A stretch of DNA of 64,000 bases. It comes from Nereocystis luetkeana (taxonomy: Eukaryota; Sar; Phaeophyceae; Laminariales; Laminariaceae). The notes under the pieces were generated by a model. That model was given only the letters and a program-made list of their open reading frames with translations. It searched no databases and was not told where the DNA came from. This document shows positions 629-64,000 of the stretch, piece by piece (within the stretch, counting starts at the first letter, position 1; each line of letters opens with the position of its first letter). The stretch lies in assembly GCA_031213475.1 (NCBI GenBank), contig JARUPZ010000002.1:16721069-16785068 (forward strand), given 5' to 3'. A program made the position numbers and the translations under genes.

Positions 629-1257
629 CCGCACAAAAAAGTGATCTCACTCGACCGCCAGCCGTGATGGCAGCCAAAAAGACAAAAACACAAAAAAAAA
701 AAAAAACAGTACCCAGGTTGTTTAGCTCACGCAGCGAGAGGCGTGTTCTACAGCGCCGTCGCCAACCGACGCCAACCCAACCTATACATACCCGGTACAT
801 AGTACAGGGAGAGGGGTGACGGGACGGGGGGGGTTATCTAGCAGCTTCCTCACTAGCCCTTCGAGAAAGAAAATTGCTGTGGAGACATTGGGTAAAATCG
901 AGACACTTTTCTTACTACCTGGCATGCGGCATACATGCGGCATGCAATTGCTTCCTCACAGCTTTTTTGGGGGGGGGGCTTTCTCGCGCTCCCGTTCTTT
1001 TTTGGAGGCTTTCTCGCCCTCCCGTAGTGTACAAGTAGCATGCCATTGTGCTTTGTATTTACTTCGTGTGTGTCTGTAGAGTACCAGGTACGTCGTGGGA
1101 CTGGTTTGTCGTCCTGGGGCCCCCACTGTATTTCCCTTTAAAAAAAAATCCTACCTATAGTACCCATCTACTGTACAGGCAGGCTCCTTGTGTGTTTCAA
1201 GTAGTGACTGCGGGGGAAAGCATGGCAGGGGATTTTTTTGGCAACGAGCTGATGTGA

Positions 1258-1420
1258 CATCGGCAGCGCAGCGACAACAGCAGCAACAGCGAAGCGTATC
1301 AGCAACAGCAGCAGCAGCAGCAGCCGCAGCAACAGCAACAACAACAACAACAGCCGCAACAAACAGCAAACGGCAGCAACACAGTAGCCGCAACATCAAC
1401 ATCAACATCAACATCAACAT

Positions 1421-1462
<42 letters not shown>

Positions 1463-1478
1463 CAACAACAACAATAGC
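1258..1478. repeat. CAG/CAA trinucleotide tract with an AACATC block
   Basis: Long imperfect CAG, CAA and GCA triplets surround five to six tandem copies of AACATC at about 1390-1425. All frames through it give homopolymer-like peptides (Gln, Ala, Thr, Leu), so no protein is called. Confidence 0.85.
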
Positions 1479-2421
1479 AGATGAGTAATGCTGAGACTTT
1501 CGGACGAAAAGTTAACCGTCGTGTCCGAACGCGTCAAAACAATGAAACCGAGGGTGCGACCTGTCGCGGAAGATTCAACCATCGTGTGCCCCATCGTACC
1601 GAATACTCACTGTCGAAGGCCCAACCATCTACGATGTATGACACTGCAGTGGCTACAGAATGTGTTTGTACTGACACACACTTCAAATGTAACGTCTAAA
1701 AACCATCGTGTCTTGATAATTTGATAGTGAGATGTATTGTCGAAGAGTAGACCGCAACGTATTGGTGGTGGTACTATTATACCCACAGCAGCAGGACGTC
1801 TCGTGGAAATCTATATTGACCCAAATCCCGACTGTCTGGGAAATTTCTCGGAATTTTCTCTGGATCTTACACGTAATGAGGGAAGCAGTGTGGTCTTTCA
1901 ACCATCTTAAAATCGAAATTGGGGCTTACTCTGTGCTTCGTTGTGGAAGACCTAACCATCACGCACCTACACATACACAGAACGATGTCACCCCGAGAGT
2001 TCGTGCGGAGAAAGAAAGCTCCAGACAACTCGTGCGTGTGTTGTCCGTGTTGGGGTACAGCAGAGACCTCATTGTGCGGAAGGTTTACGCTTCAACCATC
2101 GTCCTGCACGTTTACCCCCCGAAAAACACGCAAAAGACATGCATGCATGATCGACGTATCGTGCACGTAATTACAACCACCGTATTACATCAACCGTTTT
2201 AGAGCAAGCTGCAGTCCCTCTTTCGGGACGGACCACTCAAAATATAACCAGCGTGTCGCCAAAAGCGGGACTGCCCCCCCTCGGCTGGGACGATTTTTCC
2301 GAAAAACAAGCGTGGCGCACACAGCAAAACGAACACGACGGCTTTGGGGAAGACGTCGTCGGGGTCGTCAAGACAACTTTTCCACACACGCATCGCTCGG
2401 CGTTTGCACTTACCGTACTTA

Positions 2422-2521
2422 CTTGACCCTTTTAGGACCGCAGTCCCGTTCTGGGGACAACTCACTTAGATTTTGAGTGGTTTGTCCCCAAAACGGGACT
2501 GCGGTCCTAAAGAGGGTCAAG
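2422..2521. mobile_element. Palindromic MITE-like repeat, family B, copy 2
   Basis: A near-perfect hairpin runs from CTTGACCCTTTTAGGACCGC to its mirror ending GGGTCAAG. The arms carry GGACCGCAGTCCCGTT and the centre is TAGATTTTGAGTGG. It is one of the best conserved copies. Confidence 0.75.
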
Positions 2522-2870
2522 TTCCCCACGGCCGAGAAAACCGGCTCGTGAAATTCGTGCGAGAGAGGGGGTGTGACATCTTGCGAGCTGCATACATACA
2601 CACGAGTATATTGCGAAAGAACATTGCAGTTTGCGGGAGATTTACATCCATCATGCAACGCATTGTATGTTTTTATGTCCGCACACATATACCTGGTACA
2701 CAGAAGAACTCTTTTCTTTCTTGTTTTTGAGTAGAAAAAAAATACTGTATTTATAAGTATTCTGACTCGTCGATGTCCTAAACCATTTGTATGTAAGTAT
2801 TGGATTTTTTGGATGAGTCTCGCCCATACTTCGTTGCGTCGTTGGACAGTATTTTGTTGTGTGTGTGCTC

Positions 2871-2968
2871 GTAACCCTTTTAGGACCGCAGTCCCGTTTT
2901 GGGGACAAACTATTTAGAATTTGACTGGTTTGTACCCTAAAACGGGACTGCAGTTCTAAAAGAGTTAA
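2871..2968. mobile_element. Palindromic MITE-like repeat, family B, copy 3
   Basis: The left arm GTAACCCTTTTAGGACCGCA mirrors the right end, GCAGTTCTAAAAGAGTTAA. It lies 350 bp from copy 2 in the same arrangement. Confidence 0.75.
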
Positions 2969-3763
2969 TAGACCACTGGTCGGATACGTAGTTGTCCCAC
3001 CCAAACTTCTTTACGCTCGCCTCAACCCTGTCTCCCACACGCTGCGAAATCTTTCTCGAACTCGGGCGACAGAGGTGGCCGGCAGGCGTCCGCGTAGCGC
3101 TGGCCGCGTTTTTTCTTGTCCCCCTGGACCCGGCCACTAGAAGTGGCCGCCGATGTAGTACTTTGCTATTCCCTCCGTCTTCCAACCACCGATTTTCATC
3201 ATCTCGCCCACCGCCGGTCCATGAGTGTATGCTCTAACGTTTGGAGCTGCCCTGATTTACCGGGACCCCGACCTGCTTTTGCTCCTCGGACATAGATGTG
3301 AGATACGAATCTACCAAGGGAATCGCGCAGGGGTTGCCTACCCGGCGGGCAGGGTCCCACTCTTCCCCTTTGCCGTGTTCTTTCATGGCCATTTTTAAGC
3401 TTAGAGACAAACATTTTTCCGATTGACTCAGCCGCGTAGCGTCTTCCGCATGAGGACCCCGCCCGACACGCGTCGTCGCCCGCCCGCCCGGCCTACGCCT
3501 GGGCAAGACGTCGCATGCACCAGCTTGGTGCCTTTTCCCCTAGTGTCAAAGTAGTCGAGAAAATGGAAGACATCATCCGGCTTTGCTGTCTTCCAACCAC
3601 GGGATCCGTACCTCGACTCGCTCAGCCGTGAGATCGATAAAATTTCCTCGAAAACTCTCATCTTTCTTCGTGGAAGCTGCGTGGTGCGATACTTACATAC
3701 ACTTTGATCAAAGCGAGCTATTATACGGGGTGTATCACCTCATCAAGGATGCATAGGTCGGGA

Positions 3764-4010
3764 ACTACCCTGGGTGATAGATACTACCCTGGGTGGTATA
3801 TAGTACCCTGGATTATATATACTACCCTGGAACAGGTATACTACCCTGGATGATACAAACTACCCTGGGTGATACGTAGTACCCTGGATTATGAATACTC
3901 CCCTGGATTACGTATATTACCCTGGGTGATACATACTACCCTGGGTGATACATACTATGCTGGATTGGGTATACTACCCTGGGTGATAAATACTACCAGG
4001 GCCAACAACA
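3764..4010 (+). repeat. 19-bp minisatellite (ACTACCCTGGGTGATAC)
   Basis: About twelve imperfect tandem units of roughly 19 bp share TACTACCCTGGGTGATACA. The last unit ends at ACTACCAGGG. Units vary mainly in the last six bases. Confidence 0.85.
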
Positions 4011-4205: not shown

Positions 4206-5128
4206 GGGCGGGAGTGGGTCGGGGTTTTTGCTTGCGACTAATCGCTTGCCAATGAAAGCGTACCTGGCACGCAAAAAGAGACCCATCCCAAGGGCCAAAC
4301 TTCCTGGTCGGCTTTCGGCGAGTGTCCTCTTGGCAACGACGACTCATGAATAGGATAGGTCTCCCGGGGGTGTCTGGCTGCTGATGGTTCACGACCGAGT
4401 GTGCGCGCCAAGAAGCACTTCCGATGGTGGGGACAAAGGCCCGGGCGTAGGCCCAACCCAGCCTCTAACTCGGGGACCCGAGACGGGCTAGAAACGCGCT
4501 TGCGCCGTGTTCGAGTTTTCATTTCTCATTCGATTTTAAGTGTTCAAAAATATTCCGAGCTGGTTCTTGCGGAACACGATTGGCGAGCTGCGGATCACCC
4601 TTTTCTCCCCGGACGCTACTGCTCTACGTACGAGAGAGTGAGGTCGAAAATCTGCGGAAAGAAACAATCCAACGCTGGAAGGTCTTATCCTAAAGCCGTT
4701 GCCAGGTGCACTGGATTTTTCTGGCACAAGGTCCAACACTCGCGTACCTGGTACTATAATGTACTATTGCTGCACATGGAAGGTACATATCATGCAATTG
4801 TATACCTGGTACGAGTATATGATATGATCCAGCAACGTGATGGACACGGAAAATTCACTGAAATTTCTCGGGAAAAACATTTCAAGCGGCATGTACTGCT
4901 GCAGATACTTTCGGCGGAAGATTCGACCACGTATCCTGTACGTGCCGATAACTGTCTCAGATTAAAACCAACGCTCATGAATGTGTTCACCTTGGCCGAA
5001 AAAATAACTCTATTTTCCATGTTGGTAAATTTAATGCGAGCGAGCGGTATGAAACTTCTTCGAAGAGATAGATACCTTTACAACGGCGGCTGACGTCCTC
5101 CTTCTACCTACCAGGGTACCAGGTAGCT

Positions 5129-5584: not shown

Positions 5585-5709
5585 TATTATCGGGGAAACC
5601 ATACCGGTAGTAAATAGGACCAAAAATTGTTAGTAAAAATAGGTAAATATGTACCAGGTAGGTTTTTGTGTCTACCTTAGGTCCTATTTACTATGATCCC
5701 TCGCAATAA
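5585..5709. mobile_element. MITE family A, copy 2 (carries a TACCAGGTA insert)
   Basis: This is a family A unit with a damaged left end (TATTATCGGGGAAACCATA). Before GGTTTTTGTGT it has extra bases forming GTACCAGGTA that sibling copies such as 38,400 and 11,260 lack. Confidence 0.75.
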
Positions 5710-6176: not shown

Positions 6177-6892
6177 GCGCTCGCTTTCTTTCAGCAAGGA
6201 TGTCCCCTACCCTTCTGCCGCACATATAGTAGCAGGTCTGGAAACAAGCGCCCCGTAAAAATCGCGGCTGTTCTTGCGTCCACCTCTGGCCAACCATGGA
6301 CCAACTCTGGTCCGAGCCGCCAGCACGGGAGAACAACACCAGAGTCAGGTCAATCACGGTGTGTACACAATAGGGAACACACGGGTTTTTCGGTGCATCG
6401 TGGGTTCCGATTGGTACGGCCGGTACACCGGTCCAGCACGTACCCTATCTACACGGGATACGTAGCCTCGATACTAGCATACCCAGACTTCTCCCGCTTT
6501 TGGAGATGCTGCTGCATGGTCCTGCTTGCGGACTTTCGCAGAGGGCCCGTTCGTTGCTGTCTCACCGTTCGCGAAAAAGAAGCAAATGTTCGTTGGAGCG
6601 AAGGTTGAAAGCTATCACGGGATGCAAAAAGAGGATCCCCGCCCAACGGAGCCTCGCGCCATGGGTGCACGACGACTACTACCCACAGAGAGCAACAATT
6701 GCATCACACGCACCCGTTGCAAAGGTCAAGCAGAAACCACTGCTGCCGCCCTTTTTCGCTCCGGGCGTGACAAGAACGTCAATTAACATCGACTATGCTA
6801 CTTTGGTTCACCTCGATATACTCCGCCGTATAATGCCAGCGCCAAATTTGTAACAGTATGAATCGTTACCAGGTACCAGGTCGCCCCGGTGG

Positions 6893-7168: not shown

Positions 7169-10114
7169 AAGATGTGCGAAGATAATGAATGGGATGAGAA
7201 CAAAAAAAAAAAAAAGGTATGTGACGACAACACCGCTACCATCACCACGTGCATCCTACTGGGATCTCCACGTCTCAAAAGCACGCATCACATATGGAAC
7301 AGCACAACAATCAGCATCAGGCTGGCAGGAAAAAAGGAAGGAAGGAAGGAAGGAAGGGACGAAGAAAGTAAAAAACACACGGCAAAGATAGCAGTGTGCA
7401 TCAAAAACCACCATCATCTCCGCCGCAGTTGGCACCCCCCCCCCCACACACACACACCTCTCACCTGCATGCCTCCCACCTCTTGTTGAACCACCTGATT
7501 TATCCCTTGAAGAGGCTGCTCACACCGCCTCATGCACGCATTCACCCCCTCGCTGGACATGGAGATGTTGTCGTTACATTTCGCCATGCATAAGTACGCA
7601 GCCTTCACGTGTTATGCCGGTCCGGCGCATCAGGAGAAAGAGGACAGGAAACGGGCAGGTTAGACTAAAAACCCCACTGTAAGACCTATGCCAATGGAAA
7701 CGCGAAGTTCAAAAAAATATATTCAAATATATTGCTTTAAAAAAAAAGAAGCCGATTTTTTTCTCGTACCGCCGCTGTGGGAAAAAAAAAGAGAAAACAA
7801 GTTTTATTTTTTTATTTTTTTCCCCCCAACGGCTGCAGGCGGCGCAATTTCTTTTTTCTGGTTGCAAATTGTCAAGACGGTGATCGACGCTCGATCTCGA
7901 CATAGACTCAGCCCACGGCCAACCCGCTCGGTATCTGGCAAGGCCAACGAATATAGAGGACGGCCTCGAAGATATCAGGTGGATCCATGGTCTAGGGGGC
8001 GAGAGCTTGCCGGCGGCGTCCTACGGTATCCTCTCAAACCTGAAAAAAAGTCTATTTTTTGCCATTCGAGACGCATGGAGAAGTTTTGTCTTCTGTTTTG
8101 TGCAAACCAGTGGCCAAATGTCTTTTTATCATACGCCTCGTCAGCTCCCGCCACATGACACCGGCCATGGTGTGAAGACGGTGACCCAAGGGTGGGTCGG
8201 AGGCCCCAACGAGCGCACTCCGTTCAGAATTCATGACGCAATCGTTGGTTTTGTTGATCGACGTCTGTCGAGGACTCGGAATCTCGCCGCTTCGAACCAA
8301 AGATCGGCCTGGGTTTTTCTCAAGCCGATGTTGGCCATGTTGGCCCAACATCGGCCTCAGATTTGCTTTTTTCGGTCTTTTCCAAAAGTGAGGATTTTTT
8401 TTTTTTTTTCATGTGGCTCATAGGGATCGTGTTCTGGATTTTTTTTGGCGGGTATCTTTGAAATTCAAACTTTTTATCGAAACTTCGCTGTCCCATTGGC
8501 ACAGGTCTAACCCATACATTTTACGACGCACTCAAAAAACAACAACACAAATCAAACTCCAAGCGATTTTGTCCCCCCCCCCCCCCCCCGCCCCGCTCTT
8601 TTTCTCTCTGGGCTCGAGGGCTCACCGCAGCTCAGAAGCTTTCGGTCGATGGGCTCATTCATGTCTCACCATTCATCCTCCATCTACTACCCCCTCGGGA
8701 GGTGAACAAACTCCCTGCTGCCGTCTGCACTTGCGCCTAGGGAGAAGCACCACTCTCGAAATCATGACTCGGATTTTGCGGCATATCTGCCGCATATTAG
8801 ACTGATACCTCTACGAATGGCGTCGTCGGCAGGACACCTTGTCTGAGGGGAAGGGCTGTACTTTTTTTTCTTTTTTTCTTTTTCAAGCTGCGTCGCATTT
8901 CGGGGGGCCAAACTGGACTGCTTGGAAGCAAAAGCTGGGTCACACGTCTCGGGAACAGCCTGCCGTATGGCTGGGATAACAGGAAGAAATAGGAGCGTGG
9001 GCCGGGCCGCTATTTGGAGTTCGTCTGCACACGCACGGAGGGATCGCACAGCAGTGCCCCGTGCACTGTTCTTACGATACGCACGAGCGAACCGAGCTTC
9101 TCATCTATGGGGGGCCTCCTCTCCAGCCTTGCGTGCCCGGACCTTGTGGTCCCCGGCCGACCACCGCGAACTCCCAAAAACGGACATGAAAAAAAAGGAA
9201 CAGTTCGCACACGAGGCTCCAAAATTAAAGGAATCGTAGTATATTATTTTCCGAAAGACAAGACACCACGCCCACTCCTCGAATTCTGCAACCTTAGATT
9301 TTGTCTTCCTCCTATATATACGGACCTGTATAACCGGCACTAATTAGGCCATGTAAATCCGTAGTACGCGTGACCGATTTATCACACACGGCTTGCAAAG
9401 ATGAGCTTCGACCAAATCCTCGATCTCACAGCAGTTGTTTCTTTTTTTCATTTTATAAATATATGTACAGTGATGATGATGATGATGATGATGATGATGT
9501 TCTCACATTAGCTTACTTCCCTGAAATCCTGGCTGTGGTCACAAAATAGGCTGTAAACAAAAATGCACCTCGACGGGAGAAAACGAACAAGTACGAAATA
9601 GTGCGCACGGCACGACAGTATCCCACCAGTCCGTGAGGGAAACGGCACTAACGAGCAGTGGTATACCATCCCGTATCACGTGCAACCAAATAACACCAGG
9701 AACATAGTCCATGGTATTTTGTGCGCACTCGAAAAAAAAAGAAAACGGAAAAGAAAAAAGACAAACACACGAAGAGGGGACAAAAAGGAGGAATAAGTGA
9801 AATAAATAAAAGGAAAAAAAGAAAAGAAATAAAAACGAAGCAAGCGTGCGCTCAAGGAGCATTCCGAGTAACGAGGACAAGGTTGCTGTTTGCTGGTACG
9901 ATCAGTCCTATGATACAGCCAGCCGATGGACCAAACACAAGGACGTCACATGAATACCAGACGGAAGGCAAGAAGACAAGAAGAGAATAGAGACAAGAGA
10001 GCCAACAACAACAAAAATATTATCGGCGTACCGCTTGCCTTGTGTTCGGCCTTTCTGCTTCTCACCAACCAACGCCCACAGTTTGCGACAGCAACAAAAA
10101 TATACCAGGTACAC

Positions 10115-14240: not shown

Positions 14241-15051
14241 GGGTCGTTATTATCGTCAGTTTTTTTTTTTTTTCTCGTTTCGCGAAAAACTCACGGAAAC
14301 GCGAAAAAAATGCGGTGGGTCCTATTATCGCCTGGTGTCATGTTTCGTGAGGTTGCAACGCTCGTCCATCTGATAGAATCGTCGAAGCCAGCGGCGAGCG
14401 CGTAGGCCGTCCGCTGGATCGTGCCGCTAATTGCGCCCCGACTCCTAGAGAGGCGACCATGTCTCGCCGTACCTCGCGAGCTCAACGTCTGGCGCGACAA
14501 CGCCCTCCACGACATGAAAATAGTTGGCGATTTCGTGTTGATCTCGGCTATGTCGGTGAGTCGGCTCTGTCGACTGGACGAATAGAGCTCTCGTTGTGCA
14601 CGGCGCTTTCTGCGACCAGCCACGGCCCGAGAATGACCCTGGGTATGACCCTGATGTATCCTATGCAGTGCCGGGTGGAGACACGGCGCACACGGCTCAC
14701 ACGGTGCGCCTACCAGATGTTCTGCGACGATGCGGGACTTTTCCGCGATACGGGATTTTTTTTTTTAGGCATTTTGCCGGGGTTGAAAAAATTCCTCGAA
14801 ACGCGAAAACCCCCCCGGAAATCCGGGAATATTCCTCGAAACGCGAAAAAAAACGTCCGGTTAATAACGACCCTTATACATACCAGGTAGTTAGGAACGC
14901 CTGTGTTCCGTGTTCCCCCTTTTCAGCTTGCGACACCCCCGGGATGTCAAGTCGACCACATCCCGAAGGGGAACCTTGTACGTACTTGTAAGTGCAACAT
15001 GGTTTTTCGTTTTATCGCGAACACCTGGTACCGTAGGGTTTAGTGCTCTTA

Positions 15052-20565: not shown

Positions 20566-21581
20566 CTGGCTTGAAAAATCTAGACCATCCAACGGGAGTC
20601 GATGATCTGCCGCGAGCTGTGTAAAACTGTTCTTCGTATGATACGATATTGACAGCAGTGCCCTTGTGTACGGGTACTACAGTAGCTGTAATAGTGAGAC
20701 ACAATGTAAGCCGTAGGCCATAGGTCCACGTTGTACCACGTTGTACCTGGTAGGTTGTAGGCCGATGTTGCAGGTTGTTGGTGTTGTTGTTGGTGTTGTA
20801 TGTCGCAAACGGGCGCGCCACCCTGGGGCATTTCGGCCGCGGATTTCGCCGTGGGTAGGGGGGAAGGGTGCAGACAAGGGGAAACCGGCCGTCTCGCGCC
20901 GCGCCGGCCCGCGCTCGTCGTGGTGCGGGGGGGCAAGGTCAGGGGGCCGGATGCGGCGAGATCACGCATTACTTGGAAATAGAGGGGCGGGCTGCGGTGG
21001 TGGCACAAGCAGGGAGCAGCACTCAGTATTGTATACTCTTGCTGTAACCGCGCGCAGAAAAGCACGCTGATCCTGGTGACATACGTAGTAAATACGGGCT
21101 TTTGCTGAACAGCAGCAGTTCCCCCCTCCCCCAGCCTAACAAATTGCACAGCAGCAGTATTGCAGCAGCATACTGTATCATAGTAGCAGCAGCATGGGTA
21201 CAGAGAAACAGTTGTTTTCGACCGTGTACGATATACAACACAAAAAGTAGTACATTCCCAGCAGGTGCAATTGTGTTGTCCTCCTTTTCTACGGCCCTTC
21301 TCCACCAACACGATTGTCTGTTGAATATGGTACATATGATGGATAGTATGATACGTATACTTAACGGTGAAAATGTCCAAGGTAGCCAACGGTAAACCAG
21401 CTTCATCCTCTGTTTCAGCAGTACTCGTAGTGGTGGTGGATAACACGCACCTGCCAACGTTGACACCATTCATAACGCTGTATAATCACCGCTCTTTGCG
21501 TTCGGCGTCCGCAGTTCTCGTACTCCGCGGAAGCGTTGCGTGTTGCGCTGAACAACATTCGTATGGAGCATTCGTATGGAG

Positions 21582-56800: not shown

Positions 56801-59800
56801 TTCGAAGGTTTACCATCAACGGCTTGCCGGACTTGGATTCCGGCCTCTTCCCCAAGTGAGTATCTTACGGTGTATAGCGCATGTTGTTGATTTTATGCTG
56901 ACCGTCTTGGTAAAAGGACCCCGTTGACCCTGATACTGCAGCATCTCTGGCGTACCAGGTAGGGTAGTATCGATCACCCGGGGGGATCACCGACCGATAT
57001 ACCTATACCCTTCACGTGGCCACCCTTTACCCAGCTTTCAAATATGAGAATTCGACGGAGGTTCTCGATCCCAGAGCTGACGATTGCCTTCTTCTCCATC
57101 TCCTTCTTCTTTCTATTTCAATTTGGTTTATAGCCAACCCTTTTCACTTTCCAGCTCTCTGGGCAAGCCGTGGTCACAGACAGGTCGAAAGGTGTCTCCG
57201 CTCCCCCCCCCCCCCCCCTCCCAAATCTCACACGCTTATACGATTGGTCGGACCAAAGTAAGGGCCCATCTTGTCGAAGACTTCTATTTTCTTCAATTAT
57301 ATTTTATTTATTTTGTCTAATTTAATTTTGGATCTGATTGGCCGAAGAGTGAAAACACCAAGCAGGCATTTTCAAGGCAAATTCAAAAAATTTCAATTTG
57401 AGTGAACAGTCTTTTGGAACTTTTTTCGTGTGATTTTTATATCTCAATTTGGAATTTGGGGGTTGATCAGCCTCGATGTAGCATGTTCATGGTGGGTCAA
57501 CACCCCCGGGGTGGTCTGGGGAGATTCTTGGCTGCTTCGGTGACCACGATCGAGGCGATCGATAAAACACGAACCTCAACGAGAGGTGACCGGAGCAATA
57601 GCCGCGCCCACGCCCAAAGACGATAGCATAGCACATCGTACTCCGCGTGGCGCCCCAAGAATAATCATGGCGGCCGCAAGCCCAATTTTTCGGCCTGCTC
57701 GATCGGCCAACAATCACGAAAACCTAGCAAACGAGCAAAAACAAACGGAGGATACGCTCGAGACCTCGATAGCTGTATCACCGCTGCTGTTCCGCACGTG
57801 GCGCTTGCGGGCTCTCTCCGCCCACCCAAGACACCCTGAGAGTGATAGCTTCCTATCCTGCGCCACCAAAAATAAAACGAGGCGGGCGGCGGCGCGCAAG
57901 CGGCAACGCAAACCTTCGCTCTCGTCTACGCTCGTCGCTGTTTTGTCGGCTGGGCGTTGTGTAACACGGTGCGTTATTCCAGGTTAGTCCGAATTATGTT
58001 TTTGTTTTGACAATTAGTACGCCGTTCCTCGATAGGATACAAGAACGTTTTTTTTTTTCGAAATCAAACTAAAATTCATTGAAATTGAAAATGTATTTCC
58101 AAATAACGAAATTTCGTGTTCCCCGTTAAGATGGGCCCTAATCAGGACCCATCATATCACAAGAACGAGAAGATTATTAGGGATCGGGAACCTATATGAT
58201 AGCAACCTATAGTTTGTTGTTGTAGAGAGCATTAGGCGGTGTGGGAACCTATATGATAGTAACCTGCCGTTTGTTGTTGTAGAGAGCATTAGGCGGTATG
58301 GGAACCTATATGATAGTAACCTGCAGTTTGTTGTTGTAGAGAGCATTAGGCGTTATGGTTCATATTCTTCGGCTGAGTACGTAGTAGTAGTACGTACTGT
58401 TGTAGCTCACTTTGACAGCAGCCATTGTTTGGTTGATCGCGCTTTGTGGGAGCTTTGTGGGAGTACCAAGTGGATACCGCACGGCACGGTGCGGGCAGCA
58501 CCTGTACAACACGCGAAACGGGCCAGGGCTGTTGCTTGCACAGTTGTTCTGATTACTCTAGCCCTCCTAACAGCAGTATTCGAGGTCATCCACTAGGCCA
58601 TCGGGGCGACACGCATGATATTCTGTACTGAGTGCTGCAGAGGCGTTTAAATCGGTGTTCGGCCCGTTAGGCTGGCTGAGATAAGAGGGATGCGTTTGGG
58701 AGTTTGCTGCGCCGTGATTTCGAGCTCAAATGTACCGGGTAGTTTCTGCTGATTCCTCTTGTGTCCGGTGGCTCATGGCGCGCGCGGAGTCGCTTGTTTT
58801 GGGGAAGGGACTTCGAAACTCTTGTTAGAATTTTACTTCGAAAGATACATATTATACTGGCATGAATCACGCCGCAGTCGCACATTTTTCCTTTTGAAAA
58901 AACAAAAAAAAACGAGCTTTTATATATGCACCACTCTGTCCATGTACAAACGCCCCTTATATTTCCGTCCAGTCAAGTAATTTGTCTGCGGAAACATGTA
59001 CCACTTTGACCTGAAATATAGTGAACACCTTGGCCCGAAATATGGGGCCACATTGGGCCGAAATATAGTGCCACATTGGCCCAAAATATGAGTTGGTTTA
59101 GCAATTTGGGAGAAGGGATCTTAAGGGATGTTTTTGACTTGAAAATTGCGTAGCGTGGTCTGCACTTCGGAATCGTCGTCCGCAACTGAGAAATTTCCTG
59201 GTTCGATGCAAACGCGGCGCAGCCGCGTTTATGGCGACTTTTGGCCCGTTTTGGCTGCGGTTTGGGGTTAGGGTTAGGGTTAGAGTCAGGGGTTGGGTTG
59301 GGTCTTCGCCCGTACCTTGATCCCAACAGGAACCAAAACACCTGGACAGCCTACCAATCTAAATATCCCTTGTCCCAGATTGTTAAAAGTCCTCCAAAAT
59401 ATAGTACCACATTGGCCCGAAATATAGTCATATTGGGCCGAAATGTAGTACCACATTGACCCAAAATATAGCACCGCATTGACCCGAAGTATAGTACCAC
59501 CTTGCCCCGAAATATAGTGCCACATTGGCCCGAAATATAGTGCTATTTTGGCCCAAAAGATAGTGCCATATTGGCCCAAAAGATAGTGCCATATTGGCCC
59601 AAAAGATAGTGCCACATTGGCCCAAAAGATAGTACCACATTCCCCCAAAAGATAGTACCACATTGGCCCAAAATATAGTACCACATTGGCCCAAAATATA
59701 GTACCACATTGACCCAAAATATAGTACCACATTGACCCAAAATATAGTACCACATTGACCCAAAATATAGTACCACATTGACCCAAAATATAATGCCCGT

Positions 59801-60692
59801 TTCATACTGATTTTATCATTCAAACGGGTATTACATTCCCGACCAGAGGGGTGTGCATTTCTCAAGGGGTGGTGCTAACCGATTCACGCGTCAGATAGAT
59901 CACGATATATCTATCTACATATCAGATAGATCATCTAGGTCGTAACCTGCCGTTGTGAGGTATTGTGCAGGATCTGTGTGTGGTACAGATAGACCCAACC
60001 CAGGAAACATGTCCTAGATCGTGCAGGTTATACGCGGCTCCCACCCATCCGGCGAACATGAGCTACTGTAGGGTCGTAAAATATTAGTAATATGCGCGCC
60101 CTGCAAATAGTGCATGATGACGTAGGAAGTGTCTTCAGATGATCTGTCAAAATGACCTGTAGGTGATCTTCAGAAATGATCTGTAGGAATGATCTGTATA
60201 TGATCTGTCAGAATGATCTGTAGGTGATATGTGGATGACATGTCCGAGGCAACATGAGGTACTATATCATACCAGGTACAGGTTAGGACATGCGTCTGCC
60301 CTGATTGGGAAGCAGGAGTCGATGATCCGTCGCAGGCAATATTGAGCTTTAGTAGATGGTACAGATCAGGAATATCTCTGTCTGCCCAGATAGATCTATA
60401 GATCATGATGGAGTAGGAATCGATGATTTAGGTCATGATCCGCCCAAGGCGCGCTTAACCCTTTGAATTCGGAGGGAAGAAATGAAACGCACACCCCCAC
60501 CTCCACCTGCACCCCAACACCCCCACCCGCCCCCGCCCTCCCCCTCACGGTGATGTTGACCTCAACAACGTGCGCAGATCACACACATGCTTCAACCGCA
60601 TAGACTTGCCCATGTACTCGAACAAAAAGGAGATGGAGGAATACCTCACCATGGCCATCAACATGGAGTGTACGGGCTTCGGCATCGAGTAG
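31140..60692 (+). CDS. HECT-type E3 ubiquitin ligase, 14 exons (exons 2-15)
   Basis: The exons are 31140-31283, 35121-35210, 36443-36656, 38148-38275, 39349-39603, 46567-46659, 47557-47724, 48254-48408, 50912-51034, 52617-52782, 54062-54397, 55745-55861, 56785-56855 and 60578-60692. Together they give 2,175 nt (724 codons plus stop) with every splice phase matching. Residues 1-192 form three VPxGVxPGxxF / CPPxVxPGxxI repeats, 193-277 a linker with a Gly-rich run, 278-364 a pre-HECT region, and about 365-724 the HECT domain with catalytic Cys691. The product accepts ubiquitin from an E2 on that Cys and passes it to substrate lysines. The N-terminal repeats are probably the substrate or membrane-targeting part. 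Exon 1 is probably at 16,728. Confidence 0.9.
31580..31680. mobile_element. Palindromic MITE-like repeat, family B, copy 5
   Basis: Hairpin from GTTAACCCTTTTTAAAACTG to CTAAAGGGGATTAAC, with centre ACTCAAACTTCAAGTAG, in intron 2. Confidence 0.75.
33236..33344. mobile_element. MITE family A, copy 8
   Basis: A full unit running TATTACGGGGGGCCACAT to GGTCCCCCGTAATA, with a diverged T-rich centre. Confidence 0.8.
34120..34250 (+). repeat. About 43-bp tandem repeat (TAATGCCGATACCCGATA)
   Basis: About three diverged units of ATAGTGCCGGTCTAATAATG, then CCGATACCCGAT. The neighbouring CCAGTGTGACAGCGTGCGG also resembles 30,480, suggesting one dispersed element. Confidence 0.6.
35121..35210 (+). CDS. 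HECT gene exon 3: second half of repeat 1
   Basis: The acceptor is GGGGACAG and the donor GCCCAG|GTGAGA, both phase 0. Residues 49-78 begin VRCPPDVTGGSRIMVLVP, the CPPxVxxGxxI half of the repeat split from exon 2 by the intron, then a Gln/Arg-rich tail. Confidence 0.85.
35404..35606 (+). repeat. Repeat family D, copy 3
   Basis: GCTGCCGTTGTGGGAGGTTG, ACAGGATCTGTATTG, TAGATCATGCAGACAA and GGCAACGTGAGCTAC are in the family order. The copy ends just before a family A MITE. Confidence 0.65.
35616..35724. mobile_element. MITE family A, copy 9
   Basis: A full unit from TGTTACGGGGGACCATCG to GGTCCCCCGTAATA in intron 3. Confidence 0.8.
36443..36656 (+). CDS. HECT gene exon 4: repeat 2 and first half of repeat 3
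   Basis: After a 200-nt C/T-rich tract and CTAAAAG, it encodes residues 79-149. These include MATVPRGVSPGGEFNVMV, then VRVTCPPNVTPGMQIRIRLE, then FEVAVPQGVRPGQPFALI. One whole repeat is uninterrupted here, which shows the period. The donor ATTG|GTCAGT is phase 1, and a poly(G) run lies about 50 nt into the intron. Confidence 0.9.
36787..36925 (+). repeat. Two tandem short repeats related to family C
   Basis: TCATTTGACCATTTACCACG and TCATTTGACCATTGACCACG are each followed by CATCCCTTYCGAGACGGAGC. A poly(G) run (36,837-36,851) separates them. Further copies lie at about 39,705-39,765 and 52,835-52,905. The order GTACTC ... GACCA ... CGGAGCA parallels family C. Confidence 0.7.
37292..37672 (+). 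repeat. About 30-bp minisatellite in intron 4 (CCGTCGGTAGCGGCAGTC)
   Basis: At least twelve units of GTCGGTAGCGGCAGTCGAYCC occur here. Because the unit length is a multiple of three, a long open frame with Pro-Ser-Val-Ala repeats results. It is bounded by intron sequence and is not treated as coding. Confidence 0.8.
37955..38125 (+). repeat. (CTG)n tract abutting the exon 5 acceptor
   Basis: CTG and TTG triplets run for about 170 nt and end about 20 nt before the AG at 38,146-38,147. They replace the usual pyrimidine tract, so repeat length changes could affect splicing. Confidence 0.75.
38148..38275 (+). CDS. HECT gene exon 5: end of repeat 3
   Basis: The acceptor GCCATGCAG leaves CG to complete an Ala codon with the last G of exon 4. 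Residues 150-192 read GGQRVMVHCPLDARPGQ, then KIRFQLPIQLSEAQLQTYSI and HYSGK. The donor AAG|GTGAAA is phase 0. Confidence 0.9.
38400..38508. mobile_element. MITE family A, copy 10
   Basis: A full unit from TCTTACGGGGGACCATAG to CCCCCCCGTAATA. The centre AAATATAGAGGTTTTTG is undisturbed. Confidence 0.8.
38630..38840 (+). repeat. Repeat family C, copy 2
   Basis: It reads AGTAGGATGCAGCTCACG, CGTCCCGGCATTGCACAC, GACTACGGCCATGCATGA, then GTGCACC and a C run, the reverse orientation of copy 1. Confidence 0.7.
39160..39290 (+). repeat. Family C end fragment and poly(C) tracts in intron 5
   Basis: TATGGTCATATAACTACGGC, CATGCATGAC and GAGTACAC are followed by long C runs leading to the acceptor of exon 6. 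Confidence 0.6.
39349..39603 (+). CDS. HECT gene exon 6: GWVRCVG segment and Gly-rich linker
   Basis: After TTTTTGCCAG it encodes residues 193-277. DGWVRCVGTDLKFHWVRHDE joins directly to HYSGK of exon 5. A run of Gly/Ala (GGGGGAAGGGG type) follows, then QQRRGTISDRTMLKRK. The donor AAG|GTGCGC is weak but gives phase 0. The Gly run comes from a G-rich tract and may vary in length. Confidence 0.85.
41040..41250 (+). repeat. Repeat family D, copy 4
   Basis: TCGCCTCCCGTTCTGGGG, GTTGTGCAGAATCTGCATAC and AGGAAACATGTCCTAC match the other copies; the right end is more diverged. Confidence 0.5.
41348..41464. mobile_element. MITE family A, copy 11
   Basis: The left end is TATTACGCAGGACCATAT and the right end GGTCCCCCGTAATA; the arms are more diverged (ACTTCCTTTAGG replaces CTATTTACTATGG). 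Confidence 0.7.
41580..41820 (+). repeat. 18-20-bp minisatellite (TTATCACCCGTGTG)
   Basis: About twelve tandem units of TTATCACCCGTGTGTTATC vary by one to three bases, with occasional shorter units. Confidence 0.8.
42060..42168. mobile_element. MITE family A, copy 12
   Basis: A full unit from TATCACGGGGGACCAGAG to GGTCCTCCGTGATA. Both ends carry the matching change A-to-C/T-to-G, consistent with terminal co-variation or gene conversion. Confidence 0.8.
42169..42265. mobile_element. Palindromic MITE-like repeat, family B, copy 6
   Basis: Directly abuts the family A copy. AATCTTTTAGAACAGCAGTC mirrors the right end GACCGCAGTCTTGTAAGTG. Confidence 0.65.
42850..43157. mobile_element. TA-flanked MITE, 308 bp (Tc1/mariner-like)
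   Basis: Left end GACTCCTCAGAGCGCTCCC and right end GGGAGCATCCTGAGAAGTC are inverted and both flanked by TA. Inner arms also pair: CCGAGAGCTTTCTGG with CCGAGAAAGCTCCCGG, and CCAGAGTGGTAG with its complement CTACTCTGG. No coding sequence. Confidence 0.7.
43255..43605. repeat. (AAT)n tract, left of repeat H copy 2
   Basis: About 330 bp of AAT/AAC triplets with interruptions. One interruption is TACCAGGTA at about 43,380, inside otherwise regular AAT repeats. Confidence 0.9.
43606..44527. mobile_element. Retroelement-like repeat H, copy 2
   Basis: It matches 29,406-30,268 from ATATACCTATGATGGTCC to GTAGCCCCTTGTA, with a poly(G) run inserted at about 44,056-44,078. On the minus strand some frames of copy 1 persist while the longest is broken, so coding function is not supported. 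AAT tracts flank both sides, suggesting insertion into a microsatellite. Confidence 0.7.
44565..44706. repeat. (AAT)n tract, right of repeat H copy 2
   Basis: AAT, GAT and AGT triplets, the probable right half of the same microsatellite. Confidence 0.85.
46140..46245 (+). repeat. GGTTT-rich tract
   Basis: Repeated TTTGGTTTGG units upstream of exon 7, with no coding evidence. Confidence 0.7.
46567..46659 (+). CDS. HECT gene exon 7: pre-HECT segment
   Basis: After GGCCTCGCAG it encodes SLLAGSNFRIEGSAFVRKLS and KLKHRHYMVEL (residues 278-308), ending before GTGAGA in phase 0. Together with exon 8 it makes the FVRKLxK...ELVxAxEA segment that precedes the HECT domain in related stramenopile proteins, recalled by pattern. 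Confidence 0.75.
47187..47556 (+). repeat. (GAT)n tracts upstream of exon 8
   Basis: Two similar blocks of TGATGATGTATGATGATG (about 47,200-47,340 and 47,360-47,500) are a local duplication. They run into the acceptor GACGAGCAG, and in frame they would encode Asp-rich sequence, so the exon start is uncertain if that AG is not used. Confidence 0.75.
47557..47724 (+). CDS. HECT gene exon 8: helical segment before HECT
   Basis: Residues 309-364 begin VRAEEATLDASVPEANLTF and continue PFKEKVDWFNKQCDLLRVPW and VEHQHLK. The CDLLRVPW phrase and following helix correspond to the start of many HECT domains. The donor AAG|GTATGA is phase 0. The intron is only 529 bp and contains a family C repeat. Confidence 0.85.
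48013..48232 (-). repeat. Repeat family C, copy 3
   Basis: A complete copy from GTGTACTCGATAGGAGAGAT to GCATCCTACTAAGG, preceded by a G run (47,994-48,022). It ends 22 bp before exon 9 and supplies most of intron 8. Confidence 0.75.
48254..48408 (+). CDS. HECT gene exon 9: start of the HECT N-lobe
   Basis: After GGCTGGCAG it reads VRRNNLLEDSMAAMESV and later FEFLGEPGVDAGGVAREWF (residues 365-415). Both are hallmark N-lobe phrases. It ends TCTGAAGG before GTAAGA in phase 2. Confidence 0.92.
48409..50911 (+). other. Intron 9 (2.5 kb)
   Basis: Besides the tentative hAT-like element it holds a GATC tract at about 49,198-49,215, a (CTG)n patch at about 49,515-49,550 and a degenerate GAAAGGGTACAGGTAGT repeat at 50,310-50,620. 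No extra exon was recognised. Confidence 0.6.
48484..48735. mobile_element. Small TIR element, hAT-like ends (tentative)
   Basis: CAGGGCTGGGCACTGGC and GCCAGTGCCCAGCTCTTG are inverted, and the first resembles hAT termini. The 8-bp flanks (GTAATGGG and GTAGGTAT) do not match, so no target duplication is shown. Confidence 0.45.
50912..51034 (+). CDS. HECT gene exon 10: HECT N-lobe
   Basis: A T-rich tract and GTCTCGCGCAG precede it. The split Gly codon joins to VFNPDFALFQYSS; the exon ends QHFHFVG with AG before GTGGGT (phase 2). Residues 416-456. Confidence 0.92.
51695..51900 (+). repeat. Repeat family C, copy 4
   Basis: GTAGGATGCAGCCCACC, CCGTCCCGGCATTGTAGGG, GACTACGGCCATGCATGG and CTATCGAGTACACCCCCC are in family order. 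Confidence 0.75.
51962..52195 (+). repeat. Repeat family C, copy 5
   Basis: A near copy of 51,695-51,900 in direct orientation, 60 bp away, ending in a 29-base C run (52,184-52,212). The pair looks like a recent tandem duplication. Confidence 0.75.
52617..52782 (+). CDS. HECT gene exon 11: HECT N-lobe
   Basis: Acceptor ACCGTCAAG. The split Arg codon completes FVGRLLGKALFDGQLV, then LVRPLYKHLLGWPIAF, ending TELDDVE before GTGGGT (phase 0). Residues 457-512. G runs follow the donor. Confidence 0.93.
52783..54061 (+). other. Intron 11 with opposed poly(G) and poly(C) tracts
   Basis: G runs lie within 60 nt of the donor (52,809-52,833) and long C runs near the acceptor (53,768-53,830; 53,951-53,980). 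A family C-related fragment lies at 52,835-52,905 and further ACTACGGCCATGCATG-like fragments at 53,835 and 53,905. No exon seen. Confidence 0.6.
54062..54397 (+). CDS. HECT gene exon 12: N-lobe to hinge, including the E2-binding region
   Basis: The longest exon (112 codons, residues 513-624), phase 0 at both ends. It reads LDFTVTEDRLGSM, VVDLKEGG, VTNENIGEYVELV, FYDVIPEALLSVF and ELELLMCGLPQIDL. These follow the HECT N-lobe order, including the E2-contacting helices. A G run follows the donor AAG|GTGAGG. Confidence 0.93.
54460..54590 (+). repeat. SINE-like repeat body without the tRNA-like head
   Basis: CGCGATAAAAATG, GGGAGAAGAAGAGCCTGC and CCCGAATCTGAGCTGCGA match the body at 7,070-7,160. 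The tRNA-like head is missing, as in 5'-truncated SINE copies. Confidence 0.5.
54734..54847. mobile_element. MITE family A, copy 13
   Basis: A diverged left end (TATACTTTGGCGGGAGACC), with the right end CCCCCGTAGTA and a recognisable centre. Confidence 0.7.
55187..55345. repeat. GGGTC/GACCC inverted cluster
   Basis: Tandem GGGTCGGGTC on the left half is inverted as CCGACCCGATCCGACCC on the right half, around GAGAGTTTGAAAAC. It can form a long G-rich hairpin. Confidence 0.75.
55745..55861 (+). CDS. HECT gene exon 13: end of N-lobe / start of C-lobe
   Basis: After CCCACCCAG it reads IVKWFWEVMAGFETEQ and VLQFVTGTSGVPSQGF, residues 625-663, phase 0 at both ends. WFWEV and LQFVTGT are diagnostic of HECT ligases. 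Confidence 0.95.
55920..56470 (+). repeat. About 30-bp minisatellite (GGTCGGTAATAGTCGTGTTG)
   Basis: Diverged units of GTCGGTAATATTCGTGTTGAC fill intron 13. It resembles the GTCGGTAGCGGCAGTC array in intron 4. Confidence 0.75.
56785..56855 (+). CDS. HECT gene exon 14: C-lobe
   Basis: A 71-nt exon after TTTCTCCAG, reading GNDGNIRRFTINGLPDLDSG and LFP (residues 664-686), ending AA before GTGAGT in phase 2. Confidence 0.93.
57262..58138. mobile_element. PIF/Harbinger-type element, 877 bp, in intron 14
   Basis: GGGCCCATCTTGTCG and the right end CCGTTAAGATGGGCCC are inverted, and TAA flanks both sides (57,259-57,261 and 58,139-58,141). TAA fits the TWA target rule. Inner A/T-rich arms (TTTCAATTTGAG with GAAATTGAAAATG) also pair. 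A central open frame (57,586-57,987) has no recognisable domain. Confidence 0.75.
58182..58360 (+). repeat. Three tandem 57-bp units
   Basis: GGGAACCTATATGATAGTAA, then the CCTGCCGTTTGTTGTTGTAG and AGAGCATTAGGCG parts, repeated three times. Confidence 0.85.
59262..59300 (+). repeat. Short telomere-like TTAGGG tract
   Basis: GGGGTTAGGGTTAGGGTTAG, a few units only. It is internal, so no chromosome end is implied. Confidence 0.7.
59395..59795 (+). repeat. 23-24-bp minisatellite (ATAGTACCACATTGGCCC)
   Basis: About sixteen units of ATAGTACCACATTGACCCAAA. Single diverged units appear from about 59,000. The minus strand stays open through it and reads a repeated Trp-Tyr/Gly-Gln-Cys peptide; this is a consequence of unit length and is not called as coding. 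Confidence 0.9.
59893..60075 (+). repeat. Repeat family D, copy 5
   Basis: CCTGCCGTTGTGAGGTATTG, GCAGGATCTGTGTGTGG, AACCCAGGAAACATGTCC and TGAGCTAC in order. GATCTGTAGG-type repeats continue to about 60,430. Confidence 0.65.
60578..60692 (+). CDS. HECT gene exon 15: catalytic C-lobe and stop
   Basis: After GTGCGCAG the split Lys codon leads into SHTCFNRIDLPMYSNKKEM. The exon ends INMECTGFGIE and TAG at 60,690-60,692 (residues 687-724). The Cys codon at 60,588-60,590 (Cys691) is the ubiquitin-accepting residue. Its position 34 codons before the stop is normal for the family, so the enzyme looks intact. Confidence 0.96.
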
Positions 60693-61892: not shown

Positions 61893-61939
<47 letters not shown>

Positions 61940-62384
61940 ATCATGGCGATGATGGTTACACTCTCTTGCGCGCGCGGCGATAAGTAGCTACTCGAGCAAG
62001 AGCGACGTCGCCTTTTGGCTTCCCTCGCTCGGCCACCCCTCCCCCCGCCCCCCGCCCCCCCCCCCCCCCCCCGCCGCCTCTCCCCTTGAGCAGCGCGAGC
62101 AAAGCGCACGTTGAGGAGTGCGCCTTTTGCCTCCCCCCCCCCCCCCCCCCAAGGGTGCGCAAGCGTTTCTGCAAACGGTTGTTCCCTCTTACTAGGTTGC
62201 GCTGTCTTTGTGTCGTGGGGGGTTTTCGTTGTTTAGGTGAGGGGTGATTTTTTTTTTTGTCTCTTCTTTTCTTGTGACTGTTTTCAGCGCGGCACGGGTT
62301 TTGACAATGCGCAGGCGTCGGCCTGGCAAATTACCACTGTATACACACTTCCATCGCCAATGGAAGGCATAACGCTTATTTCGT

Positions 62385-62700
62385 TTGGAAAACTGAAACG
62401 CTTCCTTCCTTTGGAAAACCGAAACGCTTACGTATGTTTGCCTCCTTTGGACAACCGAAACGCTTTCTTCCTTTTGAAGACCGAAAAATTGCTTCTTTCG
62501 GACATCATGAAACGCTTGTCCTTCCTTTGAAAAACCGGAACGCTTCCTTCTGACTTTGGAAAAACGAAAGGCTTCCTTCCTTTGGAAAACCGAAACGCTT
62601 CTTTTCCTTGGAAAAACCAAATGCCCCCATCCTCTTGAAAACCGAAACGCTCCCTTTGGAACACAAAAAAACGCTACTTCCTTTGGAAAACTGGAACGAT
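62385..62700 (+). repeat. About 26-bp minisatellite (CCTTTGGAAAACCGAAACGC)
   Basis: Ten or more units of TTTGGAAAACCGAAACGCTT with substitutions and short insertions. Confidence 0.85.
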
Positions 62701-63357
62701 GATATGTACCTGATGTATATATATACCTGGTATGTTTTTTCCTCTTGTTTGCTGTTTTCTTTTTCGATGCTGTCTCTATTTTGCTGTCGTGTGCTCTTCC
62801 CCGGTCGGGTCTCTGATCCGCACGGCACTGCGTCGCACCGCCTGTACCCTACTGTCCCGAGACAGAGAGAGACGGCATACAAGTACTAGCCCACTTAGTT
62901 GTTGGTTCTGTGTGTTTGTGCAGGTAGCTGAAGAGGGGCGGGGAGAAGGGGGGGGGTCCGAAATTATTATGGAGCGATGGTCAACGAGAAACAGGAATCG
63001 AAGAAAACAAAAATGAAATGTGTACTGGTACGTAAACAAGAAACAAATAAAAAATATCAATAGTGCCTGGTTGATTGAATAGGTGACCAGGGTATAATGT
63101 CCGAATATCTCGGTCCGTCGTCCGTCTGATTCAAATACTACTTACTGCTGTACTACCGGACGCAACACTCCGAGCGCATATATTTTTGATGAAAAGAAAC
63201 AGATAGATAGATGATAATACCGTGCATTTTGTCAAAAGGTAGTAAAAGTAGATTCCCAGTAACATGGAGCAAGCAGCAGCAGCAGCAATCACGACATGAA
63301 ACAAGACGTATTACTCGTACCGGATACCCAGGTATGCACGTACATATTCCTGGCGGG

Positions 63358-63459
63358 CTAACCCACCCCTTCAGAACTGCCATCCCGTTTATGGGGACAA
63401 ACCAGCCAAATTCTACCTGGTATGTAGTTTGTCCCAAAAACGGGGCTGCAGTCCTTAAC
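63358..63459. mobile_element. Palindromic MITE-like repeat, family B, copy 7 (carries TACCTGGTA)
   Basis: Arms CCCTTCAGAACTGCCATCCC and GGGGCTGCAGTCCTTAACG. In the centre, TTCTACCTGGTATGTAG replaces the TTTGAGTAG type of other copies. Confidence 0.7.
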
Positions 63460-63628
63460 GTATTTTTTCGACCTCACAACAAAAAAGATCGGAATGAAGA
63501 ACAAGCCGGAGCGCTATATATATATGTATACATCACAGTACAACAGGACGATTTAAGACTAAAAAACAAGTTTGGTTTCAATTTTATTATTTATTTGCCT
63601 TCTGACAATGTGCAGGGCGTACGTATTT

Positions 63629-63740
63629 GTTTCCCAATTTTAGATCACTCGCTCTTTATTTAGAAGAAAGGGGGGGGAGGGGGACGACAGACAGTTAGTA
63701 GTGGAGGATCTCTAGAACCAAGTGATCCAAAATTGGGAAA
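63629..63740. repeat. Inverted repeat with 19-bp arms
   Basis: TTTCCCAATTTTAGATCACT and AGTGATCCAAAATTGGGAAA pair with about 70 bp between them; could be the ends of a very small element. Confidence 0.7.
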
Positions 63741-64000
63741 ATAATAGACTTCACTTCGTTGCCATAAATCGTCCTATGATCACAGCTCTCCTGTTTGCTT
63801 GTCATTCTGGCTTTTTTTATGTGAGGTAGGTGTCGGAAAGAAGACAGTCAGTCGCGGGCGCCCTGGCAACTGTTACAGTGCTCGTACAGACTACGAGGCA
63901 GTTACGTACCAGGTAGTTTTATACTGCTGTTTTTATTTTTTATAATTATGAAATACGTCAGCTGTGAGTTCGACTGTTTACGAGTATATATATGTATAGT

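Follow-up and report, generated by a model that had tools for sequence, protein, structure and literature searches.

A nine-base word dispersed through the Nereocystis luetkeana genome is probably the excision scar of a TA-targeting transposon

Introduction

A stretch of 64,000 nt of Nereocystis luetkeana DNA (GCA_031213475.1, contig JARUPZ010000002.1, 16,721,069 to 16,785,068, forward strand; hereafter the window) is strewn with the near-palindrome TACCWGGTA, which occurs in two forms, TACCAGGTA and TACCTGGTA (W = A or T). How did this word come to be so frequent, and what left it there? A sequence-only reading of the window had proposed either that a transposon targeting TA, with ends CC...GG, leaves it as an excision footprint or that it is a binding site that spreads.

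Results

Abundance of TACCWGGTA

The window contains 33 exact TACCWGGTA sites (Table 1), compared with a mean of 0.34 and a maximum of 2 in 100 dinucleotide shuffles, and a further 29 sites with one mismatch. The strong excess claimed by the sequence-only reading, which expected fewer than one site in 64 kb, was thus confirmed, and the 14 positions that it had singled out all lie inside, or no more than 2 bases from, an exact site. The genome-wide count that it had recommended gave the same picture: the 465-Mb assembly holds 182,395 exact copies, or one per 2.5 kb, against 1,744 copies of the reversed pattern used as the control, and with up to one mismatch the numbers are 367,383 and 66,255. 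The over-representation is therefore real. Samples of 282 kb, 293 kb and 343 kb (<0.1% of the genome) were used for the scans described below. In the 343-kb sample, the 5-nt core CCWGG stood between two TAs at 127 sites compared with 4 in the control, and this one core predominates among the residues between TAs.

Table 1. Exact TACCWGGTA sites (putative excision footprints) in the window.
Word	Position	Strand	Remark
TACCAGGTA	1082..1090	.	exact match
TACCTGGTA	2690..2698	.	exact match
TACCTGGTA	4745..4753	.	exact match
TACCTGGTA	4803..4811	.	exact match; 58 bp from the 4745..4753 site
TACCAGGTA	5117..5125	.	adjoins MITE A copy; TACCAGGGTA variant overlaps on left
TACCAGGTA	5652..5660	.	within MITE A copy; siblings without insert
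TACCAGGTA	6867..6875	.	followed by decayed tandem copy (TACCAGGTC)
TACCAGGTA	10103..10111	.	adjoins MITE A copy
TACCAGGTA	14881..14889	.	exact match
TACCTGGTA	17070..17078	.	exact match
TACCTGGTA	17433..17441	.	exact match
TACCTGGTA	20744..20752	.	exact match
TACCTGGTA	24892..24900	.	exact match
TACCAGGTA	26441..26449	.	within MITE A copy; siblings without insert
TACCAGGTA	27067..27075	.	close pair, member 1
TACCTGGTA	27076..27084	.	close pair, member 2
TACCAGGTA	28109..28117	.	among clustered decayed copies (28081-28117)
TACCAGGTA	28401..28409	.	exact match
TACCTGGTA	34401..34409	.	exact match
TACCAGGTA	34559..34567	.	exact match
TACCTGGTA	34600..34608	.	exact match
TACCAGGTA	34709..34717	.	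exact match
TACCAGGTA	35979..35987	.	exact match
TACCTGGTA	41341..41349	.	on TA that borders MITE A copy
TACCTGGTA	41492..41500	.	exact match
TACCAGGTA	43380..43388	.	breaks AAT microsatellite
TACCTGGTA	49756..49764	.	exact match
TACCAGGTA	55503..55511	.	exact match
TACCAGGTA	56953..56961	.	exact match
TACCAGGTA	60270..60278	.	exact match
TACCTGGTA	62724..62732	.	exact match
TACCTGGTA	63414..63422	.	centre of family B repeat; siblings without insert
TACCAGGTA	63907..63915	.	exact match

Origin of the word by a 7-bp insertion at TA

Alignment with repeat relatives, which the sequence-only reading had proposed as a check for a precise 7-bp gain at TA, was carried out for 85 motif sites and 900 control words, of which 11 and 251, respectively, had a relative. 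The best relative lacked the extra 7 bp at 10 of the 11 motif sites compared with 7 of the 251 control words (Fisher p 6e-13), and its dinucleotide at the site was exactly TA in 7 of the 10 cases and GA or TG in the other 3. The single exception was the site in the AAT microsatellite (43380), which the word does interrupt as claimed, though alignment there is uninformative because any register fits. The examples cited for an insertion in MITEs were also borne out: the sites at 5652 and 26441 carry the insert where family A siblings have sequences such as ATATAGG or ATGTAGG, and the site at 63414 carries it in a family B copy, a sibling of which reads AATTCTAAATAG. Where relatives permit a test, TACCWGGTA is thus formed from TA by insertion, giving TA-CCWGG-TA. 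When gaps were scanned blind, some of the inserts were aligned as gaps of 5 bp instead of 7 bp, and therefore the two lengths are indistinguishable in some contexts, mainly TATA. The insert consists of 5 bp plus TA, with none of the internal sequence that a MITE carries between its terminal inverted repeats, and the sites are not confined to one kind of sequence, occurring in MITEs, in a microsatellite and in a tandem array.

Target preference of the flanks

Left and right flanks were pooled, with the sides separated for positions 1-3 only. In 172 pooled flanks compared with a TAN5TA background, T was enriched at +3 (0.41 vs 0.25, p 7e-5) and +6 (0.46 vs 0.27, p 2e-6) and A/T at +7 (0.80 vs 0.56, p 1e-8); A was scarce at +1, and purine at +2 was not significant (p 0.13). 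T is the commonest base at +3 on either side (36/79 and 31/79), and similar values were obtained after tandem-like neighbours were dropped (176 of 198 flanks kept). The preference is thus centred on TA and, as far as the sides were compared (positions 1-3), symmetric, a pattern to be expected if the transposase is specific for TA. Beyond TA, the flanks have no invariant base at a third or fourth target position, and TTAA, TNA or ANT targets were not seen, which does not fit a piggyBac or Harbinger scar. The flank scores of the tested substitution variants ranged from 0.51 to 1.05, with TACCWGGCA at -0.06 (n = 7 to 28 sites each); those of all TAN5TA, TACWGTA and TACAGGTA were -1.22, -1.94 and -2.28, respectively.

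Decay, tandem copies and related words

Copies with one mismatch are in excess by about 120,000 in the genome, compared with 181,000 intact copies. Observed and control changes were 50 and 14 at T1, 24 and 16 at A2, 30 and 9 at C3, and 33 and 17 at C4; changes without excess over the control were A2 to C (3 and 6) and C4 to T (6 and 6), and transitions lead the decay. These copies suggest a decay of about 7% per base with no protected core. Tandem copies of the word occur 15,917 times in the genome compared with 2 in the control. They exceed the prediction for independent events, and their central bases depend on each other (the same base in 40 of 59 tandem copies among the matches listed), which counts against the scar model. 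TA-CAGG-TA, which is enriched (35 vs 3) without the flank signature, likewise counts against the scar model. An excess of TACWGTA, TACGAGTA and TACAGGTA was also seen in the sample; these words were not called scars because their flanks lack the target signature. The words TACCAGGGTA (8 vs 0 in the control) and TACCAGTA (31 vs 23) may be inexact versions of the scar.

Search for the parent element

The sequence-only reading had also suggested a search for full elements with TA-CC...GG-TA ends, and none was found in 282-343 kb, under 0.1% of the genome. In 282 kb, no TA-flanked pair of terminal inverted repeats started with CCWGG, and inverted-repeat scans of 282 kb, 293 kb and 343 kb revealed no TA-CCWGG...CCWGG-TA element. 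A termini scan of 343 kb, which looked for words at TA whose copies agree downstream but are unrelated upstream, likewise yielded no TA-CCWGG-bounded element. Five of its words beginning with CC were checked closely and rejected as parent ends, four dispersed ones on account of upstream sequence much alike in many copies and the fifth as a tandem array; the CGGTGCGATTCAT repeat was rejected as it appears to carry an inherited scar. A scan of 343 kb for insertions against empty relatives recovered MITE A and gave 150 large inserts; none had CCWGG at both ends, as judged from the best 70 of the 150, CCWGG-bounded inserts being ranked first. Among TACC...GGTA pairs with similar ends there was one strong case (L039:4156-4489), in which, within the stretch compared, both arms of the inverted repeat run about 425 bp past TACC; it is therefore a long inverted duplication and not a TA-bounded element. 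Provided that no parent copy would have escaped recognition, the upper limit on their number is about 4,000, so that footprints outnumber parents by at least about 45 to 1.

An intact transposase of the IS630/Tc1/mariner type, matching PF13358, was present in ten copies with 99-100% identity, which indicates that the Tc1/mariner superfamily has been active in this genome. An earlier PF13358 profile search had given 0 matches, a result that is uninformative because this transposase matches the profile. PF01359 gave 0 matches with its control silent too, and PF03184 gave 46 at E up to 1, one multi-copy locus of which was read. The ten-copy family probably ends like MITE A, judging from a MITE A-like sequence in L046. 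MITE A and this probable partner are TA-flanked like the TACCWGGTA sites; however, MITE A ends with TTACGGGGG, which is unable to leave CCWGG, and its target flanks differ. The transposase probably belongs to MITE A. Separately, one ORF fuses NADAR and reverse transcriptase domains, a combination reported in Ectocarpus Gypsy elements (PMC12477816).

Discussion

TACCWGGTA is probably the excision scar of a cut-and-paste transposon that targets TA and is likely to be of the Tc1/mariner type. Such an element would insert at TA and duplicate it. At excision, its transposase would cut within the element, so that both broken ends would carry a few of the element's terminal bases as a short overhang. 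If the element ended in CCWGG and the overhang were the 5-nt CCAGG or CCTGG, the two ends could form four base pairs out of five (C:G, C:G, mismatch, G:C, G:C), and ligation, with the central mismatch (A:A or T:T) repaired, would leave CCAGG or CCTGG between two TAs. The footprint proposal of the sequence-only reading is thus favoured by the 7-bp gain, the target preference, the decay and a form like that of the Sleeping Beauty scar; its last link is missing because the CC...GG element was not found in the small part of the genome scanned.

The Sleeping Beauty footprint, TACAGTA or TACTGTA (PMC4378557), arises from 3-nt overhangs (PMC7827188), and it likewise has TA on each side, a symmetric core with a central A/T, and a net gain at TA, of 5 bp. 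TACCWGGTA differs in its core, CCWGG, which has one more C and G, and in its 7-bp net gain, and the Sleeping Beauty word TACWGTA shows no target-flank signature in the sample here. Tc1 of Caenorhabditis elegans likewise inserts at TA with a weak, symmetric preference, its consensus being CAYATATRTG with T at +3 (PMC8525568 and PMC9635669). T at +6 and A/T at +7 are additional features of the TACCWGGTA flanks. The Tc1 scar, TACATGTA, also differs from TACCWGGTA. The plant mariner-like elements Osmar5 and Ppmar2 make staggered cuts and leave varied residues of 1-4 nt between TAs (PMC9632168), and residues of 2-3 nt are also on record (PMC2170065), whereas a single 5-nt core predominates here. 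The 5-nt core is therefore outside the 1-4 nt given in these reports, residue length being no defining trait of the superfamily.

It is rather unlikely that the source was another superfamily whose target duplication is the 2-bp TA. The brown alga Ectocarpus has many superfamilies of DNA transposon, but Mariner-Tc1 is itself diverse there, with 17 families (PMC12477816); a member was recently active in the present genome, and T at +3 and a scar with a central W are both on record for Tc1/mariner in the sources above. A micro-insertion without a large parent, in which an enzyme adds 5 bp and the TA duplication directly (a stray transposase with its own terminal fragments, or end-joining that adds CCWGG at TA breaks), would fit the failure to find a parent in up to 343 kb, the ratio of footprints to parents (if all parents are recognisable) and the frequent tandems. 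We know of no precedent for such a process. TA duplication and a TA-centred preference are, however, the outcome of ordinary transposition, and few parent copies are expected of cut-and-paste elements whose scars accumulate, so that this explanation is improbable.

A protein-binding site or regulatory motif spread by selection would account for a near-palindromic and strongly enriched word. This alternative, the other proposal of the sequence-only reading, is largely refuted and has very little probability left: where a test is possible the word was inserted, not substituted; it lies in the varied contexts described above; and its core is not conserved against mutation as a regulatory or binding site would be, since changes exceed the control at the CC positions and the outer T alike and decayed copies are so numerous. 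Multiplication by copying, the word being part of a microsatellite or of a repeat family that was amplified, is scarcely credible. In one or more repeat families the word appears to have been inherited, and the tandem copies show an excess of the same central base; but the 33 window sites have differing flanks, and relatives spanning the site are rarer for motif sites than for control words (11/85 vs 251/900). Copying is refuted for most sampled sites because their flanks are unrelated.

To return to the excision scar, one possible account, which we hold tentatively, is that a single lineage with a 5-nt self-complementary overhang left scars that rejoined almost uniformly, producing 7-bp insertions estimated at about a third of a million, intact and decayed ones together; this lineage may itself be rare or dying out, the scars being its main visible trace. 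No description of such a genome-wide scar was found in the titles and abstract openings among the matches listed from the open-licence literature. Excision scars are normally examined in laboratory assays. If the words are scars, this genome documents past cut-and-paste transposition in readable form, offering a tally of transposition events that does not depend on surviving copies and a map of target preference. It would also hold a large natural supply of 7-bp, frame-shifting insertions, and the uniform core would tell how germ-line breaks were repaired.

Abundance of TACCWGGTA

The window contained 33 exact copies of TACCWGGTA, compared with 0.34 on average and 2 at most in 100 dinucleotide shuffles, and a further 29 sites differed by one base. 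In the whole genome (465,085,209 bases), there were 182,395 exact sites versus 1,744 for the reversed word used as a control, and 367,383 versus 66,255 when up to one mismatch was allowed. The strong over-representation claimed in the sequence-only reading was thus confirmed in the window and genome-wide; the excess is real and large. The genome density is approximately one site per 2.5 kb, and the window is denser than this mean (33 versus ca. 25 per 64 kb). Density is uneven, since 46 sites fell in 20 segments of 10 kb that were chosen by position.

Gain of the word at TA sites

Each site was reduced to a single TA, and relatives of its flanks were sought in ca. 279 kb of sequence. Relatives spanning the site were obtained for 11 of 85 motif sites, and for 10 of these 11 the additional 7 bp were absent from the best relative, with no gap nearby. 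By comparison, 251 of 900 controls, sampled from 962 other TAN5TA words, had relatives, and only seven of these lacked the 7 bp (Fisher p = 6e-13). The relative carried exactly TA at the site in seven of the 10 cases and GA or TG in three; one of these alignments (L010:782) is weak. These results indicate that the word was gained as a TA insertion, as had been proposed, and this is well supported at the few testable sites. Among the cases originally named, those in MITE A (5652 and 26441) and family B (63414) held, and that in the AAT microsatellite at 43380 was the sole exception of the 11. Further sites with relatives lay in other repeats. A separate blind scan covered 521 gaps between copies of repeats; in it the insert showed up as 7-bp and also as 5-bp gaps, because the aligner is free to place the second TA differently; the 7-bp reading depends on the collapsed-TA search.

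In three MITE A copies (5652, 26441, and L017:6350), the scar is apparently at the same TA. Because the bit score of each is higher against an empty copy than against a scarred copy (121 versus 115, 158 versus 115, and 108 versus 94, respectively), the comparison favors separate events at a preferred TA, although two of the margins are small.

Features examined (bare positions, window; L, sampled stretches of the genome assembly G000; C2, a contig)
Feature	Position	Description
Motif sites with relatives	5652, 26441, L017:6350, L020:975	Inside MITE A
Motif site with relatives	63414	Family B
Motif site with relatives	L023:7419	Tandem array
MITE A copies, examples	5129, 6068, 10116, 33237	Very abundant, palindromic, ca. 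110 bp, TA flanks, ends TTACGGGGGACCATAG
Multi-copy transposase locus	C2:6045201-6047700, within G000:C2:6045201-6049200 (L045, L046)	IS630/Tc1/mariner-type, open 513-codon frame
Inverted duplication	L039:3730-4940	Arms ca. 590 bp or more, most alike near the centre; scars at mirrored positions in both arms
Long array	L015, ca. 741-9614	Repeats of ca. 87 bp containing TACCAGACCCCGTAGGATCATACCC
Reading frame	L011:1-2730, minus	NADAR domain and reverse transcriptase

Target preference and decay

In 172 flanks with sides pooled and positions read outward from TA, T was preferred at +3 (0.41 versus 0.25, p = 7e-5) and +6 (0.46 versus 0.27, p = 2e-6); at +7 the preference was for either A or T (0.80 versus 0.56, p = 1e-8). 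A was avoided at +1 (p = 7e-4) and C at +5 (p = 3e-5), and the preference at +2 was not significant (p = 0.13). Values were similar when tandem-like neighbours were dropped (176 of 198 flanks left), and left and right flanks, compared separately at positions 1 to 3, agreed at +3. The published weak symmetric consensus of Tc1 targets, CAYATATRTG, shares T at +3.

The substitution variants tested appear to be decayed scar copies, because their flank scores mostly stayed positive, with wide errors; TACCWGGCA was the exception (−0.06). TACAGGTA, TACWGTA, and TACGAGTA were over-represented in the window and the samples, and their flank scores were well below zero, the signature of the scar being absent. 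The excess over the control was 120,477 one-mismatch and 180,651 intact copies, giving ca. 7% change per base and ca. 343,000 events in total if all sites were equally old; both figures are rough, since site ages must vary. In a 343-kb sample, changes exceeded the control at T1 (50 versus 14), C3 (30 versus 9), and C4 (33 versus 17), and only weakly at A2 (24 versus 16). Transitions led overall, except for C4 to T (6 versus 6), and the per-position changes gave no sign of a conserved core.

Tandem and clustered sites

The tandem scar TACCWGGTACCWGGTA had a genome count of 15,917 versus 2. In a 264-kb sample, 79 sites among 15,235 TAs (ca. 0.5%) were scarred, so that ca. 1% tandems would be expected if both TAs of a scar were hit independently; the observed ratio was 8.7%. 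In this sample, sites less than 150 bp apart were in excess, numbering 13 (simulated mean 5.3, maximum 12), and those less than 500 bp apart numbered 22, within the simulated range (mean 14.5, maximum 24). Local reinsertion could cause this excess, and so could regional age differences. Some tandems may instead be 7-bp duplications, because the central bases of the two copies are correlated: among the matches listed, 40 of 59 plus-strand tandems, all lying within 2.9 Mb of the start of contig C1, had the same base in both (p = 0.009). Among the mixed tandems in this set, the A-then-T order was in excess, with 14 cases versus five of T then A (p = 0.06); A-then-T tandems numbered 4,522 (28%) genome-wide.

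Search for a proposed parent transposon

The full element with TA-CC...GG-TA ends that the sequence-only reading called for was not encountered: no TA-bounded element with CCWGG ends was found in scans of 282 to 343 kb, less than 0.1% of the genome. The insertion scan can work, because it recovered MITE A, whose ends matched 60 times in 299 kb. Zero copies in 343 kb permits up to ca. 4,000 parent copies at 95% confidence if every copy is recognisable, and a low-copy parent is therefore fully possible.

With an E-value limit of 1, the search for DDE_1 domains yielded 46 matches. The frame of the transposase locus on C2 matched DDE_3 at 47 bits, and the locus has 10 copies on nine contigs, with all 2,500 bases matched at 99-100%; this family is recently active. 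Because a MITE A-like end (84-88% identical to MITE A ends) lies ca. 590 bases further downstream, in L046, this family is the likely autonomous partner for MITE A rather than the source of CCWGG. The insertion-site preference of MITE A is unlike that of the scars. What the family establishes is limited to past activity of the Tc1/mariner superfamily in this genome. In Ectocarpus, another brown alga, 17 Mariner-Tc1 families with ca. 12,000 copies are given in PMC12477816, the main text of which does not contain the word footprint. That paper also reports NADAR paired with reverse transcriptase in a Gypsy lineage, as in the L011 frame, a likeness that points to a brown-algal host.

Probable origin of the word

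Between TAs in 343 kb, the core CCWGG occurred 127 times versus 4 for the control, compared with CCSGG (7 versus 2) and CCGG (15 versus 13); CAGG (35 versus 3), the one other strong core, lacked the flank signature. The middle base of Sleeping Beauty scars varies because the overhangs pair everywhere except at the centre. Sleeping Beauty is cleaved three bases in from each end, which produces 3-nt 3' overhangs (PMC7827188), and its scars are TACAGTA or TACTGTA (PMC4378557). TACCWGGTA has a like layout with one C and one G more. The corresponding 5-nt overhang would be CCAGG or CCTGG, and its pairing at four of five positions is proposed as the reason that one core dominates. A 3-nt overhang joined with a one-base overlap is possible, but on reasoning it would give no stable pairing.

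The proposal that the word is the footprint of a TA-targeting transposon is supported by the TA insertion and by the Sleeping Beauty-like layout, and the CC...GG element did not appear in the 282-343 kb scanned. We consider a transposon excision scar the best explanation of TACCWGGTA, and a fairly probable one; the source superfamily and the 5-nt overhang are inferences. Residues between TAs are 1 to 4 nt in the published cases considered, and a 5-nt residue would be new among those.
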